Of a stretch of 24,232 bases of DNA, positions 7,065 to 17,029 are shown piece by piece. The notes beneath the pieces were generated by a model. It had not been told where the DNA came from. It saw nothing but the letters and a program-made list of their open reading frames with translations, and made no database searches. This DNA is from a virus. How positions within the stretch are numbered: the first letter of the stretch is position 1; each line of letters starts with the position of its first letter. The stretch lies in the IMG/VR virus record IMGVR_UViG_3300025168_000651, positions 1 to 24,232 of that record; one strand, 5' to 3'. The translations under genes and the position numbers were made by a program.

Positions 7065-7096
7065 ATACAAAGAGTTTTATAAGGGTTAAATAACTC

Positions 7097-7144
7097 TTGC
7101 AACTTTAAATTATATATACTATATTACGTTGTGAATAAAATAAA
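7097..7144 (+). promoter_or_regulatory. Early promoter A with TTGTGAATAAAATAAA leader
   Basis: TTGCAA (7097-7102), a 17-base spacer and TATATT (7120-7125) form a good sigma70-type promoter. Four bases later comes TGTGAATAA (7130-7138) within the block TTGTGAATAAAATAAA (7129-7144), shared with other early units. AAGGAG at 7149-7154 then serves the gene at 7161. The motif covers the expected transcription start, so a bound protein there would repress. Confidence 0.75.
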
Positions 7145-12147: not shown

Positions 12148-12970
12148 TTTATTAAATGAAAAACCTAAAGCTTTATTAAAAGACTTTATTAATAATTATA
12201 AATCTTTATATGAAGTTGATGAAGAATTTTCTTTAAAACTTATAAATAAATGTATAAAACACTATCAGAATAAATCAAAACAACCTTTATATCTTAAAAA
12301 TTTAATGAAAAAATGGTATGATGGTCTAGATAAAGTAGAAAAAAACATAGTTGAAGATTTTAATTATTCTGTATATAACGACAGATATTATTTTGCTACT
12401 GATTTATGGCCTTGTTTTGTTTTATATAGTCGGAAATATATTTTAGGAGTATTGAAAAATGAAACTATATATAATCAAATTAAAAAATGTAATTCTATAA
12501 TTGACTTAGGTTGTGGATTAGGGTACTCAACTGCTATGCTAAAACAAGCTTTTCCAAATAAAGAAATAATAGGAACAAACTTAGAAGATACTGAACAGTA
12601 TAGTTTTTGTGAAAAAATGAGTAATATGTATAATTTTAAAATTATAGAATCTGAACAAAAGATAAATAAAAATATTGATGTAGTTTTTGCCTCTGAATAT
12701 TTTGAGCATATATTTGATGCCCCTATAAATATTCAAAGATTAATAGAGAAAATAAAACCTAAGTTTTTATTGTTGGCAAATACTTTTTCACAAAAATCAG
12801 TTGGGCATTTTAATTATTATGAATATAGAAATTATGATGCTAAACTTCTTCAGTTTGTAGATAATAAAAAAACATCTAAAATATTTAATAATGTTTTAAA
12901 AAGACTTGGTTATGAGTTAGTAAAAACAGGAATGTGGAATAATAGACCTAATTTTTGGAGAAAAAAATGA
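12134..12970 (+). CDS. Class I SAM-dependent methyltransferase
   Basis: The 278-residue protein starts at ATG 12134, 14 bases inside the previous gene. A helical N-terminal extension of about 115 residues precedes a Rossmann methyltransferase core: motif I SIIDLGCGLGYSTAML (DLGCGLG at 124-130), an acidic strand end at EIIGTNLED (144-152), and motif IV-like VVFASEYFEHI (183-193). The DPPY/NPPY signature of N6-adenine or N4-cytosine methylases is absent and no Pro-Cys motif of C5 methylases is seen, so direct base methylation is uncertain. A sugar, small molecule or modified base is possible. An ATGA overlap couples it to the glycosyltransferase gene, suggesting sequential action. Confidence 0.75.
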   Translation: MKKNNLLNEKPKALLKDFINNYKSLYEVDEEFSLKLINKCIKHYQNKSKQPLYLKNLMKKWYDGLDKVEKNIVEDFNYSVYNDRYYFATDLWPCFVLYSRKYILGVLKNETIYNQIKKCNSIIDLGCGLGYSTAMLKQAFPNKEIIGTNLEDTEQYSFCEKMSNMYNFKIIESEQKINKNIDVVFASEYFEHIFDAPINIQRLIEKIKPKFLLLANTFSQKSVGHFNYYEYRNYDAKLLQFVDNKKTSKIFNNVLKRLGYELVKTGMWNNRPNFWRKK

Positions 12971-13794
12971 ATCCTAATTATCCAGTTTATATAATATCTA
13001 AAGGAAGATGGGAAAAAAGAAAAACTAGTAGACAGCTAGAGGCTTTAAAAGTTCCATATCATATAGTAATTGAGCCACAAGAATATGATAATTATGCAGC
13101 TGTAATTGACCCAAAGAAAATATTAGTGTTACCTTTTAAAAATTTAGGTCAGGGGTCAATACCCGCCAGGAATTGGGTTTGGGAACACTCTGTTTCAATA
13201 GGGGCAAAACGTCACTGGATATTAGATGATAATCTATATATGTTTTATAGGCATAATAAAAATTTAAAAGTTCCAGTGACTTCTGGGACTATATTTAAAT
13301 GCGCAGAGGACTTTGTAGACAGATATGAAAATGTTGCTATCAGCGGTTTTGAATATTTTATGTTTATTCCAAGAAAAACAAAAAAAGCTCCATACAGATT
13401 AAATACACGTGTTTATAGTTGTATATTAATACAGAATGATATTCCATATAGATGGAGAGGTAGGTATAATGAAGATACTGATTTATCATTAAGAGCGTTA
13501 AAAGATGGTTGGTGTACTGTTTTATTTCAATCTTTTTTATGCGATAAGACAACAACAATGACTGATACTGGAGGAAATACAGAAGATTTATATGAAATTA
13601 AAGATGGAAGATATAAAATGGCTGAGTCTTTATATCTACAACATCCCGATGTAACTACAATTACAAAAAAGTGGGGTAGATGGCAACACCACGTAAACTA
13701 TAAGCCTTTTAGACATAATAAACTAAAGATGAAAAAAGGTTTAATAGTGCCAGATAGAGTTAATAATTATGGAATGGAATTAGTCAAAGTATAA
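12967..13794 (+). CDS. TET/JBP-associated-type glycosyltransferase (TAGT-like)
   Basis: ATG 12967 is chosen because it follows GGAG (12957-12960) and forms an ATGA overlap; the TTG at 12955 lies ahead of that site. The 275-residue protein has a GT-A-like pattern: VYIISKGRWEKRKTSRQLEA at the N-terminus, NLGQGSIPARN at 59-69, HWILDDN at 83-89 (DD likely binds metal and nucleotide sugar), RYNEDTDLSLRALKDG at 166-181, and TGGNTEDLY at 201-209. These match my memory of the TAGT family, predicted to glycosylate hydroxylated bases in phage DNA together with TET/JBP oxygenases. No oxygenase or hydroxymethylase is visible in this window. The C-terminus is basic (KKWGRWQHHVNYKPFRHNKLKMKK begins near 239), consistent with DNA contact. 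Confidence 0.75.
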   Translation: MNPNYPVYIISKGRWEKRKTSRQLEALKVPYHIVIEPQEYDNYAAVIDPKKILVLPFKNLGQGSIPARNWVWEHSVSIGAKRHWILDDNLYMFYRHNKNLKVPVTSGTIFKCAEDFVDRYENVAISGFEYFMFIPRKTKKAPYRLNTRVYSCILIQNDIPYRWRGRYNEDTDLSLRALKDGWCTVLFQSFLCDKTTTMTDTGGNTEDLYEIKDGRYKMAESLYLQHPDVTTITKKWGRWQHHVNYKPFRHNKLKMKKGLIVPDRVNNYGMELVKV

Positions 13795-13873: not shown

Positions 13874-14389
13874 ATGAATATATTTATACTTGCAGATCAT
13901 CCTGAAACTTCAGCAAAAATGCAACATAATAAACACGTTGTAAAGATGGTCTTAGAATCTGCTCAAATGCTATGTAGTGCTTTTGAAAAAGGAATTGCAC
14001 CATATAAAAGAGCCTATTACAATCACCCGTGTACTATTTGGGCAAGAACAAGCAAAGAAAATTATGAGTGGTTATTATTACACGCTTTAGCTCTAGCTTT
14101 AGAATACACTCATAGATATGACAAGGTACACGCTTCAGAAAAAGTAATAGGTTGGTGTTTTAATAATTACGAATCACTTATAAGTTTTCCAGAAAAAGGT
14201 AAAACTAAAAACGCTTTAGCTATGCCGAATATTTATAAAACAGATAACGCTGTAGAGTCTTATCAAAGGTATTATTTAGGCGAAAAAGTAGAAAATGCAA
14301 AATATACAAAAAGAAAACCTCCTGCATTTTTAGAAGATGAATATTTAAAAGAAAGCGTAAAAAAAGCTAAAGAGTTAGAAAAGAGTTAA
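13874..14389 (+). CDS. Pyr_excise-like phage protein (possible DNA repair glycosylase)
   Basis: The 171-residue protein has AGGAG and its own leader copy D. It reads MNIFILADHPETSAKMQHNK, then HVVKMVLESAQMLCSAFEKG, and NHPCTIWARTSKENYEWLLLHALALALEYTHRY (residues about 50-82). These blocks match a phage family I recall being assigned to PF03013 (pyrimidine-dimer DNA glycosylase). The T4 enzyme relies on an N-terminal Thr2, which is absent here, so repair activity is doubtful and the Pfam label may be loose. All-helical content and conserved His/Trp/Tyr residues suggest a nucleic-acid enzyme or binder. The segment KTKNALAMPNIYKT (residues about 114-127) is also typical of these phage proteins. 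Confidence 0.5.
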   Translation: MNIFILADHPETSAKMQHNKHVVKMVLESAQMLCSAFEKGIAPYKRAYYNHPCTIWARTSKENYEWLLLHALALALEYTHRYDKVHASEKVIGWCFNNYESLISFPEKGKTKNALAMPNIYKTDNAVESYQRYYLGEKVENAKYTKRKPPAFLEDEYLKESVKKAKELEKS

Positions 14390-14407
14390 ATAAATGTTAT
14401 AAAAGTG

Positions 14408-14456
14408 TTGCATCTTTGAACTTGTTGTTTTAATATACATTGTGAATAAAATTAAA
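14408..14456 (+). promoter_or_regulatory. Early promoter E with repeated leader motif
   Basis: TTGCAT (14408-14413), a 17-base spacer and TAATAT (14431-14436) are followed by ACAT and then TGTGAATAA (14441-14449) and AAATTAAA. Geometry and leader match promoter A almost exactly. It drives the amidoligase, amidotransferase and cyclotransferase genes. Confidence 0.75.
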
Positions 14457-14474
14457 CAAACAAGGAGTTCAAAA

Positions 14475-15476
14475 GTGAAAAACAAATTTAATACTACAAA
14501 AGGTTACGGAATAGAAATAGAGTTTATAAGACCAAACGAATTAGAAAAAAGCACTATAGTTAATAAAATTAATTCAAATCTAACAGATGAAGGCTTTACT
14601 GGTTGCCAATTAGAAAGTTATAATCATATAACTAGACCAACGTGGAAGTTAGTAGGCGATAGTTCAGTACACGGACAGTATAATTATAGAGGCGGTAATG
14701 AATTAGTATCACCGATACTTAGAGGGCTTAATGGTAAGAGGCAACTAGAAATAGTTTTAAAAGTGTTAAATGATTTAGGTTGTAAAGTAAATAGAAGTTG
14801 TGGTTTACACGTTCATCACGATGTAACAGATACAATGGTAAAAGGTAAAAAAGAGGCTACTGTATTTTTAAACAACTTAATTAAGTTTACTTGTAAATTT
14901 GAGCATTTTATTTACAGACTTATATCTCCTTCAAGATTGACTGGTTCTTGGTGCCAACCTGCTAGAAGGTATTTCACTAACATGAGAAATTCAAATACAG
15001 CAAACTTATCACAAATTTCAAAAAACATTTTTAAAAACGTCAAAGAACAATGTGATGATAAATACAATAGATATGGAAGAGGTCAAACTAATAGCTATAC
15101 ACCTAGCACTTTGCAGAGAGGTAGGTATTGTGGACTAAATCTTAAAAACATCTGGACTAGAGGTTCTGTAGAATTTCGTTATCATCAAGGAACTTTAAGT
15201 TTTAATAAAATCTGGAGCTGGGTTGTTTTAACTCAAGCAATTATAAATGTTACAGAAGTAGCTAAAAGCGTTTCATTTAAAAATATACCTTATTCAAAAG
15301 ATGGGTTCTTTTATTTCCGTAAAGCTTTAGGTTTTATCGGTAGTAAAGAAAGATGTAGTGAAGTAAAGTTTGCTAACAAGACAACGAGCAAAAGATTTAA
15401 AGAAATGACAACAACTGAACACGAGGCAACAAGAACAAGAAGTTCATTTTATAATTTAATCAACTCAAGCAATTAA
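14475..15476 (+). CDS. Putative amidoligase (Amidoligase_2 type, glutamine-synthetase-like fold)
   Basis: I choose GTG 14475, seven bases after AAGGAG (14462-14467). The in-frame GTG at 14442 is part of the leader motif. The 333-residue protein has GIEIEF at 12-17 (metal-binding glutamates of the GS-like fold), GNELVSPIL at 74-82, CGLHVHHD at 109-116, and SVEFRYHQGT at 231-240, the ordered signature of the PF12224 putative amidoligases. Members are predicted to use ATP to join a carboxylate and an amine, making an amide or isopeptide bond. The next two genes encode a glutamine amidotransferase and a gamma-glutamylcyclotransferase, the partner set reported for this family. The substrate is unknown: cell-wall peptide, free metabolite or modified base are all possible. 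The stop lies within a hairpin. Confidence 0.8.
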   Translation: MKNKFNTTKGYGIEIEFIRPNELEKSTIVNKINSNLTDEGFTGCQLESYNHITRPTWKLVGDSSVHGQYNYRGGNELVSPILRGLNGKRQLEIVLKVLNDLGCKVNRSCGLHVHHDVTDTMVKGKKEATVFLNNLIKFTCKFEHFIYRLISPSRLTGSWCQPARRYFTNMRNSNTANLSQISKNIFKNVKEQCDDKYNRYGRGQTNSYTPSTLQRGRYCGLNLKNIWTRGSVEFRYHQGTLSFNKIWSWVVLTQAIINVTEVAKSVSFKNIPYSKDGFFYFRKALGFIGSKERCSEVKFANKTTSKRFKEMTTTEHEATRTRSSFYNLINSSN

Positions 15477-15485
15477 GCTTGAGTT
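15462..15485 (+). other. 9-bp hairpin spanning the amidoligase stop codon
   Basis: AACTCAAGC (15462-15470) pairs perfectly with GCTTGAGTT (15477-15485) across the loop AATTAA, which contains the TAA stop. No U-tract follows, so it is unlikely to terminate. It may be a processing site or set the level of the downstream gene, whose ribosome site AAGGAG lies about 10 bases later. Confidence 0.55.
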
Positions 15486-15506
15486 TGGGGAAAAGGAGAA
15501 AATAAT

Positions 15507-16397
15507 ATGTGTGGATTAGCAGGAGTAATTTTAAAACAAAAAGAAAGAACTACAGAAGAGACGAATTTTATTACAGATAATTTTTCTAGGATGTTAATTA
15601 GTGCAAACTCAAGAGGTGGTCATGCTACTGGATTTGCATTAATTGATAAATCTGGAGACCACTTAATATGTAAAAGACCTAAGAACTCTTATAAGTTCTT
15701 TAAGGATAGAGAAGTTTCAGAGGTTTTAGATATTGTATCAAGTTCTGTAACGTGTTTAATGGGTCATACTAGATATGCTACATTAGGAACGCCACAATTG
15801 AATTCTAATAATCATCCAATAAGAGCTGGTAAAACAATAGGCACTCATAATGGCTCAATACAAAACCACAAAGAATTGTTTAGCAAATACAATATGAAAA
15901 GATTTGCCCAAGTAGATTCAGAAGTAATATTTAGGCTTCATGATACATCAAAAGACATTTCAGATTTTGTAAATAACAGGATGCCAAAACTTAGAGGTCG
16001 TGTTGCACTTGTTTGGGCTGACTTAGACTATCCAGAATATATTTATTTATATAAAGGTAACAACCCTCTGGAATTAGTTTATGTCCCTAAGCTTGAGCTG
16101 TACGCTTATGGAAGTACCCAAGAAATACTAAACACTAAATTTTGGGGTGATATAGAGCGTGTAGAAGTAAAGCCTAATACACTATTAAGAGTAAACACTA
16201 GGACTTTTAGAACTAGAACTAAAAAAGTAGAAACACAAGCACCTGTTTATAAAAGCTTTGGAACTTATAATCCTAAAATAGGAGCTTATGAAAACACTGT
16301 TAAAAACTTTGTTCCTAGATTTAGTTTTAGTGAACAAAAAAATCTATTTAAAAACTATAAAGCTGAAGATGGCTCGACTATAAGGAAAATAAAATAA
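15507..16397 (+). CDS. Class II glutamine amidotransferase (Ntn hydrolase)
   Basis: The 296-residue protein begins MCGLAGVIL; removal of Met exposes Cys2, the nucleophile of Ntn amidotransferases. Supporting motifs are RGGHATGFALID (36-47), GHTRYATLG (86-94), NNHP (101-104), GTHNGSI (112-118) and VDSE (136-139), matching the glutaminase domain of GlmS/PurF-type enzymes. It would release ammonia from glutamine, or act as a related amidohydrolase. There is no attached synthase domain, so a separate partner must use the ammonia, most simply the amidoligase encoded just upstream. AAAAGGAG precedes the ATG, and the stop overlaps the cyclotransferase start as TAATG. Confidence 0.88.
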   Translation: MCGLAGVILKQKERTTEETNFITDNFSRMLISANSRGGHATGFALIDKSGDHLICKRPKNSYKFFKDREVSEVLDIVSSSVTCLMGHTRYATLGTPQLNSNNHPIRAGKTIGTHNGSIQNHKELFSKYNMKRFAQVDSEVIFRLHDTSKDISDFVNNRMPKLRGRVALVWADLDYPEYIYLYKGNNPLELVYVPKLELYAYGSTQEILNTKFWGDIERVEVKPNTLLRVNTRTFRTRTKKVETQAPVYKSFGTYNPKIGAYENTVKNFVPRFSFSEQKNLFKNYKAEDGSTIRKIK

Positions 16398-17029
16398 TGA
16401 ATTTTACTAAAGTAGGTAAGAAAACTTTTTATGTATTTGTATATGGAACTTTAAAGACAGGAGGAGGTAATCATTACCTTTTATCTAATTCTAGATTTGT
16501 AGAAAGATATGTTCTAGATAATCATGTACTTTATGATATAGGTCATGGATTTCCATATCTGACCAAAGGAGATGGAGCCGTATATGGAGAAATATACGAA
16601 GTAGATAAAAATACACTAGATAGGCTAGATGCTTTAGAGGGTTTAGGCTTATTATATAACAGAGACTATACCAACTATTATGATAAAGAAAAAAAGAGCG
16701 TTGTGGATTATCCATTAAGAGTAAACTTATATTTTTATACTGCAGTTATAAATGATTTTGGTAAATATGAAAAACTTCCTAATGGATTCTGGAGCAATGG
16801 ACAAGATAAAGAACTGCTTAATGTAATTGTAGATGGAAGAGAATATAGGGACACCGCAGATAAAATTGTATTTCATATGAGATTTTTTGATGGAGAGCGT
16901 ACACCCACAAATATTGATTATATGAAGTTGGTTAAAGCTAGGTGCCATATCGAGCATATAGACACAAATTCAGAGCTTATATTCGTGAAACAACTAATAA
17001 GTCATGGAGTAATTAAAGAAACTTTTTAG
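16397..17029 (+). CDS. Gamma-glutamylcyclotransferase (AIG2-like)
   Basis: This 210-residue protein starts in a TAATG overlap. FYVFVYGTLKTGGGNHYLL (residues 11-29) is the glycine-rich substrate loop of the GGCT/AIG2 fold. VYGEIYEVDKNTLDRLDALEG (72-82 holds the last part) contains E81, which aligns with the catalytic Glu of the family. Such enzymes cyclise a gamma-glutamyl group to 5-oxoproline and free the amine. Residues beyond about 125 form an extra C-terminal region not usual in minimal GGCTs (about 110-150 residues). In the trio it may remove or edit gamma-glutamyl amides made by the amidoligase. Confidence 0.82.
   Translation: MNFTKVGKKTFYVFVYGTLKTGGGNHYLLSNSRFVERYVLDNHVLYDIGHGFPYLTKGDGAVYGEIYEVDKNTLDRLDALEGLGLLYNRDYTNYYDKEKKSVVDYPLRVNLYFYTAVINDFGKYEKLPNGFWSNGQDKELLNVIVDGREYRDTADKIVFHMRFFDGERTPTNIDYMKLVKARCHIEHIDTNSELIFVKQLISHGVIKETF

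Follow-up and report, generated by a model that had tools for sequence, protein, structure and literature searches.

An amidoligase, glutamine amidotransferase and gamma-glutamyl cyclotransferase gene trio in a virus genome record: conservation, linkage and a candidate role in host modification

The three genes and their predicted products

We analysed a virus record of 24,232 bases (IMG/VR record IMGVR_UViG_3300025168_000651, hereafter the window), focusing on three head-to-tail open reading frames (ORFs) on its plus strand (14475-17029) that encode an amidoligase (PF12224), a class II glutamine amidotransferase (GAT) and a gamma-glutamyl(amine) cyclotransferase (GGACT, PF06094). The trio is positioned between a non-structural region and the terminase gene: tail genes occupy the left part of the window (a Phage_tube_2-like match at 31-660 that scores under its cut-off, and PhageMin_Tail at 1347), short ORFs and replication-type genes begin at about 7.1 kb, and the terminase (17574) and capsid (22076) genes lie on the right. 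The features of the trio, with the basis of each, are as follows:

14462..14467, plus strand: Shine-Dalgarno sequence AAGGAG for the amidoligase (sequence)
14475..15476, plus strand: amidoligase, PF12224, glutamine synthetase fold, 333 amino acids from GTG 14475 (Pfam, alignment, model)
15493..15498, plus strand: Shine-Dalgarno sequence AAGGAG for the GAT (sequence)
15507..16397, plus strand: stand-alone class II GAT (GATase_6), 296 amino acids (Pfam, alignment)
16397..17029, plus strand: gamma-glutamyl(amine) cyclotransferase GGACT, PF06094, 210 amino acids (Pfam, alignment, model)
16796..17026, plus strand: C-terminal extension of the GGACT, approximately residues 134-210 (Pfam, alignment, model)

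The more likely start of the amidoligase is GTG 14475, which follows AAGGAG by 7 nucleotides; a GTG further upstream, at 14442, is a possible alternative. The start codon of the GGACT gene overlaps the stop codon of the GAT gene (TAATG, 16395-16399), an arrangement that suggests coupled translation.

The three family assignments agree between Pfam and PHROGs. In Pfam, the amidoligase passes PF12224 with 88.9 bits (cut-off 22, E 6.5e-25), the GAT passes GATase_6 with 57.7 bits (cut-off 27, E 1.6e-15) and the GGACT passes PF06094 with 76.1 bits (cut-off 22.8, E 4.3e-21). In NCBIfam, the GAT had only GAT-type matches below threshold, and the amidoligase and the GGACT had no match.

An initial annotation of this DNA held that the key residues of all three enzymes are intact, and alignments bear this out. 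Both glutamates of the ExE in the amidoligase motif GIEIEF (E14, E16), together with H112 and H114, are invariant in all 58 aligned amidoligases, as are G12, W57, D62, E76, R154, N222, E233 and R235; the alignment retains 58 of 81 sequences, near-duplicates and one sequence with a stop within its stretch (L065) having been excluded. Within the clade of the window, the nucleophile Cys2 of the GAT is kept in 27 of 27 proteins, Asn115-Gly116 in 26 of 26, and Asp137 is invariant; the protein also gives a match to the GlmS glutaminase domain (E 2e-06) and carries a C-terminal tail of about 100 amino acids that contains clade-conserved residues. Among 14 chosen GGACT proteins, E81 is present in every one and the YGTLK motif varies at T18 only.

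The predicted model of the amidoligase (pLDDT 94.1, pTM 0.93) has YbdK as its closest solved fold (Z 13.4, 243 residues aligned, root-mean-square deviation (rmsd) 4.7), followed by a plant glutamate-cysteine ligase (Z 12.5), glutamine synthetases (Z 11-12.7) and Dop (Z 11.9). Known members among these structural neighbours use glutamyl carboxylates as substrates, and we take the ExE of the first strand to correspond to the pattern of the YbdK/glutamate-cysteine ligase/glutamine synthetase superfamily. As predicted, then, the protein retains a fold of the glutamine synthetase/glutamate-cysteine ligase type, with the ExE and HxH residues in place, in answer to the concern that structural comparison might reveal loss of the ATP or metal site. 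The GGACT model superposes on human gamma-glutamylamine cyclotransferase (Z 13.7, rmsd 3.3, 125 residues aligned), and the matches include the E82Q mutant of that enzyme. Its C-terminal 75 or so extra residues are mostly helical and conserved in the clade, and match no Pfam family.

Linkage in relatives and in known phage gene sets

To place the trio among its relatives, we used the best 80 of 435 confirmed IMG/VR amidoligase loci as a viral set and the best 80 of 263 loci as a bacterial genome set, with a control set made of the best 80 of 398 loci fetched with a glycosyltransferase gene that lies upstream of the trio in the window. Linkage was counted with profiles iterated on the fetched loci; GGACT assignments in three loci (L005, L092, L044) were rechecked with Pfam and held. 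Across the 80 viral loci, a GGACT gene is found in 68 and a GAT gene in 38. After dereplication at 95% identity, the clade that includes the window comprises 28 representatives, and all three genes are present in every one of the 24 members (window included) that have at least 2 kb of downstream sequence. The GGACT gene adjoins the GAT gene in 21 of these and lies 1-3 kb further on in the other three (L032, L037, L040), and a PF06094 match occurs in 20 of 20 clade contigs searched whole. Four members with less than 2 kb downstream (L025, L028, L033, L035) stand outside the 24, although L025 nonetheless has all three genes. The contig of L028 (33,764 bases) carries the amidoligase and GAT genes at one end and the GGACT gene at the opposite end, as would be expected of a genome that is circularly permuted and possibly complete.

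The control contigs, which are of mixed lengths and possibly fragments, show a different distribution: neither GAT nor GGACT occurs in any of the 74 that lack an amidoligase, versus both in 5 of the 6 that have one. Linkage of the trio in the clade thus exceeds chance, and the expectation of the initial annotation that the neighbourhood would be conserved across phages, rather than the genes never being linked, is borne out. Beyond the clade, at least one partner gene accompanies the amidoligase in 20 of 22 viral representatives (18 GGACT only, one GAT only, one both, two neither), compared with 29 of 60 bacterial genome representatives (21 GGACT only, five GAT only, three both); 7 of the 29 viral representatives and 11 of the 71 from bacterial genomes had flanks too short to be counted. 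By these numbers the partnership holds strongly in phages and more loosely across the family at large. The amidoligase hits in bacterial genomes share about 35% identity or less over their length with the window's protein, the exception being a short stretch at 56% in L226. An IMG/VR contig (L056) and a contig of a Myxococcaceae metagenome-assembled genome (MAG; L199), each of 75,335 bases and with identical match coordinates, are probably the same DNA.

Amidoligase, GAT and GGACT together are already known as a phage gene set, of which the window is a reduced form. Passages of PMC5498523 and PMC11945000, which cite earlier work (Hardies 2013), describe a 'peptidoglycan modification' module in RIO-1-like, HP1 and LUZ24/tf-like podoviruses; these accounts, and a passage of PMC10580990, read the module as altering peptidoglycan side chains for the purpose of superinfection exclusion or lysis. 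Action of the module on peptidoglycan is thus a published hypothesis. The initial annotation had the substrate of such phage enzymes as unproven, which stands; a named hypothesis was, however, already in print in PMC5498523 and PMC11945000, namely that peptidoglycan is modified to counter superinfection or to aid lysis.

We found PF12224 amidoligase, GAT and GGACT genes co-occurring in RIO-1, tf, Bjorn, MW202615 and the Arthrobacter phages Ottawa and Wheelbite. Like the podovirus module of Pseudoalteromonas and Pseudomonas phages, the window carries the three genes close by one another in the non-structural region, but the module has in addition an ATP-grasp enzyme and a phiEco32-type COOH-NH2 ligase. 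Neither an ATP-grasp enzyme nor a phiEco32-type ligase was found among the window ORFs or in any of 20 clade contigs, all of them possibly fragments; the sole positive controls for these searches were RIO-1, tf, Bjorn and MW202615, and RIO-1, tf and MW202615 had also served to build both models. Since the two enzymes were not found, we rejected the full podovirus module for the window and file it with a broader kind of gene set. The proteins differ too, the GAT having 296 amino acids in the window versus 420 in RIO-1 and 531 in tf, and the GGACT 210 versus 136 in RIO-1, and the gene order is also unlike that of the module.

Comparable in composition are Ottawa and Wheelbite, in which GGACT, amidoligase and GAT genes are adjacent and neither the ATP-grasp enzyme nor the second ligase was detected; unlike in the window, the GGACT gene precedes that of the amidoligase, which is about 28-31% identical to the window's. 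Two Arthrobacter phage genes annotated 'hypothetical protein' (L005, 4195-4662; L092, 2316-2768) encode GGACT proteins (Pfam 52.6 and 69 bits, respectively) and so complete the trio there. An amidoligase with GGACT adjacent or close, as in the window, is also seen in the amidoligase plus AIG2/GGCT pairs of Geobacillus phage GR1 and Bacillus phage 055SW001, but no GAT was detected in these phage loci (L004, L007). A passage of PMC3485107 describes an amidoligase and AIG2/GGCT pair in Tn6164 of Clostridioides difficile. Inspection of phage C75C1 (L006, 6711-7604) revealed a single protein, annotated as a gamma-glutamyl cyclotransferase, in which a GAT-like N-terminal domain beginning with MC (GATase_4, 21.9 bits, just under the cut-off of 23) precedes a GGACT domain (76.8 bits); between it and the amidoligase gene, which lies upstream, are about 0.85 kb of DNA and four small annotated genes. 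Judged from its domain matches, this apparent fusion is evidence for a partnership of the two enzymes beyond proximity.

Neighbouring genes, promoter-like element and distant trios

Three features lie upstream of the trio in the window:

12970-13794: TET-associated-type glycosyltransferase (TAGT), about 0.7 kb upstream of the trio
13874-14389: Pyr_excise-like gene, before the trio
14408..14447, plus strand: promoter-like element, TTGCAT, 17 nucleotides, TAATAT, then GTGAAT (pattern match; repeat D2)

The window's TAGT has viral relatives at 63-84% identity (best 80 of 398), and a TAGT gene is found in 9 of the 23 clade members that have 3 kb of upstream sequence. No TET/JBP gene was seen among the window proteins scanned, a subset of the ORFs. 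The Pyr_excise-like gene precedes the trio in the window and follows it in L009, L010 and L022 and in a fourth locus, given as either L002 or L008, indicating that this neighbour moved while the trio stayed whole.

The initial annotation assigned the trio its own strong early promoter. A promoter-like element is indeed present at 14408, and copies of the pattern (TT[GT]nnn, 16-18 nucleotides, TAnn[TA]T, then GTGAAT) occur at 7097, 7926 and 14408 in the window, on the plus strand only; the first and last fall within repeat D2 (14380-14455 versus 7069-7144, 71%). In 15 of the 28 clade members (window included) the element precedes the amidoligase gene, against a shuffle mean of 0.03 for a pattern that was written post hoc, and is missing from the other 13 upstream regions. 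A plain sigma-70 scan gave no excess (68 sites versus 74 expected). What is left of the earlier claim is thus the post hoc, clade-wide pattern, from which neither 'strong' nor 'early' follows. The promoter had also been offered as an argument that the trio acts apart from the methyltransferase and glycosyltransferase genes; for separation from the glycosyltransferase, the comparative data given below provide better support.

Trios distant from that of the window occur in six bacterial-genome contigs (L232, L236, L237, L238, L241, L242), where they lie in a prophage-like element with baseplate-type and DUF4815 genes; a seventh genome locus, L213, also has all three families. The DUF4815-type gene (identified with Pfam on the L238 copy) is observed upstream of the trio in five of the six contigs, and the sixth, L242, begins within the amidoligase region and matches L238 in its DNA. 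On these grounds we rejected a chromosomal, non-phage function for these trios. Compared with L238, DNA identity is approximately 89-96% until roughly the end of the GGACT gene (near 10.72-10.77 kb), at which point it stops in L232, L237, L241 and L242 and continues in L236. Past the GGACT gene lie BrxA/BrxC in L238 and L242 (L236 having the same DNA as L238), BrxF/BrxC in L232, a DrmD/HmaA-like helicase in L237 and a type I restriction pair in L241. Shared DNA that ends near the GGACT gene, with differing defence genes beyond it, indicates that the trio forms the constant edge of a variable defence site. This location fits a role in exclusion, and could be mere position. The six contigs are labelled Phycisphaerae (twice), Anaerolinea, Desulfobacterium, Ozemobacter and Desulfatitalea; DNA this similar across five named groups points either to wide transfer or to misplaced MAG contigs, both of which are possible.

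Proposed function and alternatives

Class II GATs free ammonia from glutamine, ligases of the glutamine synthetase fold convert a glutamyl carboxylate to an acyl phosphate to which ammonia or an amine is then added, and GGACTs turn gamma-glutamyl amines into 5-oxoproline. With this chemistry in mind we tentatively favour, at somewhat under even confidence, a phage host-modification cassette in which GAT supplies ammonia, the amidoligase forms an amide, GGACT trims, and the target is a peptide of the host envelope. The GAT would hydrolyse glutamine through Cys2 and deliver the ammonia; a (probably glutamyl) carboxylate would be activated by the amidoligase at the expense of ATP and joined to ammonia or an amine; and the GGACT would open gamma-glutamyl amides to 5-oxoproline, either trimming the product or removing a blocking gamma-glutamyl group. 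We infer that the three enzymes act on one common substrate, which may be a peptidoglycan stem or precursor, and that the altered envelope peptide would impede rival phages or prepare the wall for lysis.

Two published observations bear on the target indirectly. In phage HP1, according to a passage of PMC7082346, 'predicted peptidoglycan modification genes' are 'expressed immediately'. In a laboratory-evolved Pseudomonas phage, missense changes in the amidoligase gp22 and the GAT-type gp23 are reported for rounds 15 and 30 in part of PMC11450229, from which it also appears that the phages of the two rounds may not be independent and that early genes were lost and structural genes changed as well.

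Several results weigh against an envelope-directed cassette. The papers searched yielded no experiment addressing what such a trio acts on, and no feature of the window points to the envelope. Terminase matches, all below 60% identity, come from phages of many hosts and single out none. The trio is not universal, the amidoligase standing with neither partner in 31 of 60 genome representatives, and GAT is missing from many relatives, including 18 of the 22 non-clade viral representatives, which have amidoligase and GGACT only. Nor is the published pathway transferable whole, since our searches turned up neither the ATP-grasp enzyme nor the second ligase. Finally, the amidoligase model shares its fold with the YbdK/glutamate-cysteine ligase/glutamine synthetase superfamily but has no sequence match to a solved member: Foldseek gave E 4.5e-05 with low TM-scores in its best rows (0.35-0.43), and a sequence profile run against the Protein Data Bank retrieved no homologue, just two chance-like matches to a designed protein. 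Kinship to solved folds is therefore remote.

Other substrates have to be weighed against the envelope peptide. The trio might edit a soluble host metabolite or defence signal, such as a gamma-glutamyl compound, and thereby shield the phage from the host's response. Members of all three families also work in small-molecule metabolism (glutamate-cysteine ligase, PuuA and BtrG), and the distant trio homologues adjoin variable defence genes in a prophage-like element, both of which speak for this account; yet the genes next to the trio in the window include none recognised from known defence-signal metabolism, the three proteins of the trio match no PADLOC model, and we consider the account unlikely. 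The appearance of Dop among the structural neighbours (Z 11.9) raises a further prospect, that a host or phage protein is amidated or conjugated by the amidoligase in the manner of PafA/Dop and Pup. However, ligases that do not act on proteins (YbdK, glutamine synthetase, glutamate-cysteine ligase) match the model equally well or better, and no Pup-like gene was recognised on reading the window's ORF list, no dedicated search having been made; a protein target strikes us as distinctly improbable. A little less credible again is scavenging of glutamate or nitrogen, by which the trio would recycle gamma-glutamyl compounds during infection. GGACT and GAT do yield 5-oxoproline and glutamate plus ammonia, but a ligase that consumes ATP accompanies them in 24 of 24 clade members, which argues for synthesis.

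The phage's own DNA was a further candidate, in that the trio might work with the glycosyltransferase at 12970 to make a hypermodified base. The glycosyltransferase gene does precede the trio, by about 0.7 kb in the window and likewise in 12 of 28 clade representatives, but it is missing from 14 of the 23 members with 3 kb of upstream sequence, with the trio remaining in place, and 74 of 80 contigs with a TAGT show no amidoligase. With its linkage to the glycosyltransferase so patchy, we rejected base modification as the main role and hold it to be very improbable; of the three targets put forward in the initial annotation it is the least supported, and the view expressed there that the trio has a role apart from the glycosyltransferase is strengthened by the same counts.

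Returning to the host-modification cassette, a more specific version holds that the trio is itself a superinfection-exclusion device, in which an ATP-driven writer and a gamma-glutamyl eraser act on envelope marks. Such a device would be an obligatory three-gene minimum in the siphophage clade and, in distant temperate elements, the constant edge of a site of exchange for BREX, type I restriction or DrmD-like systems; we rate this version as speculative and rather unlikely. At the level of the family, a clade that keeps exactly these three enzymes offers a minimal set suited to expression and assay, and the fusion protein and the defence-site loci, as leads, hint at which partners cooperate and what to measure.

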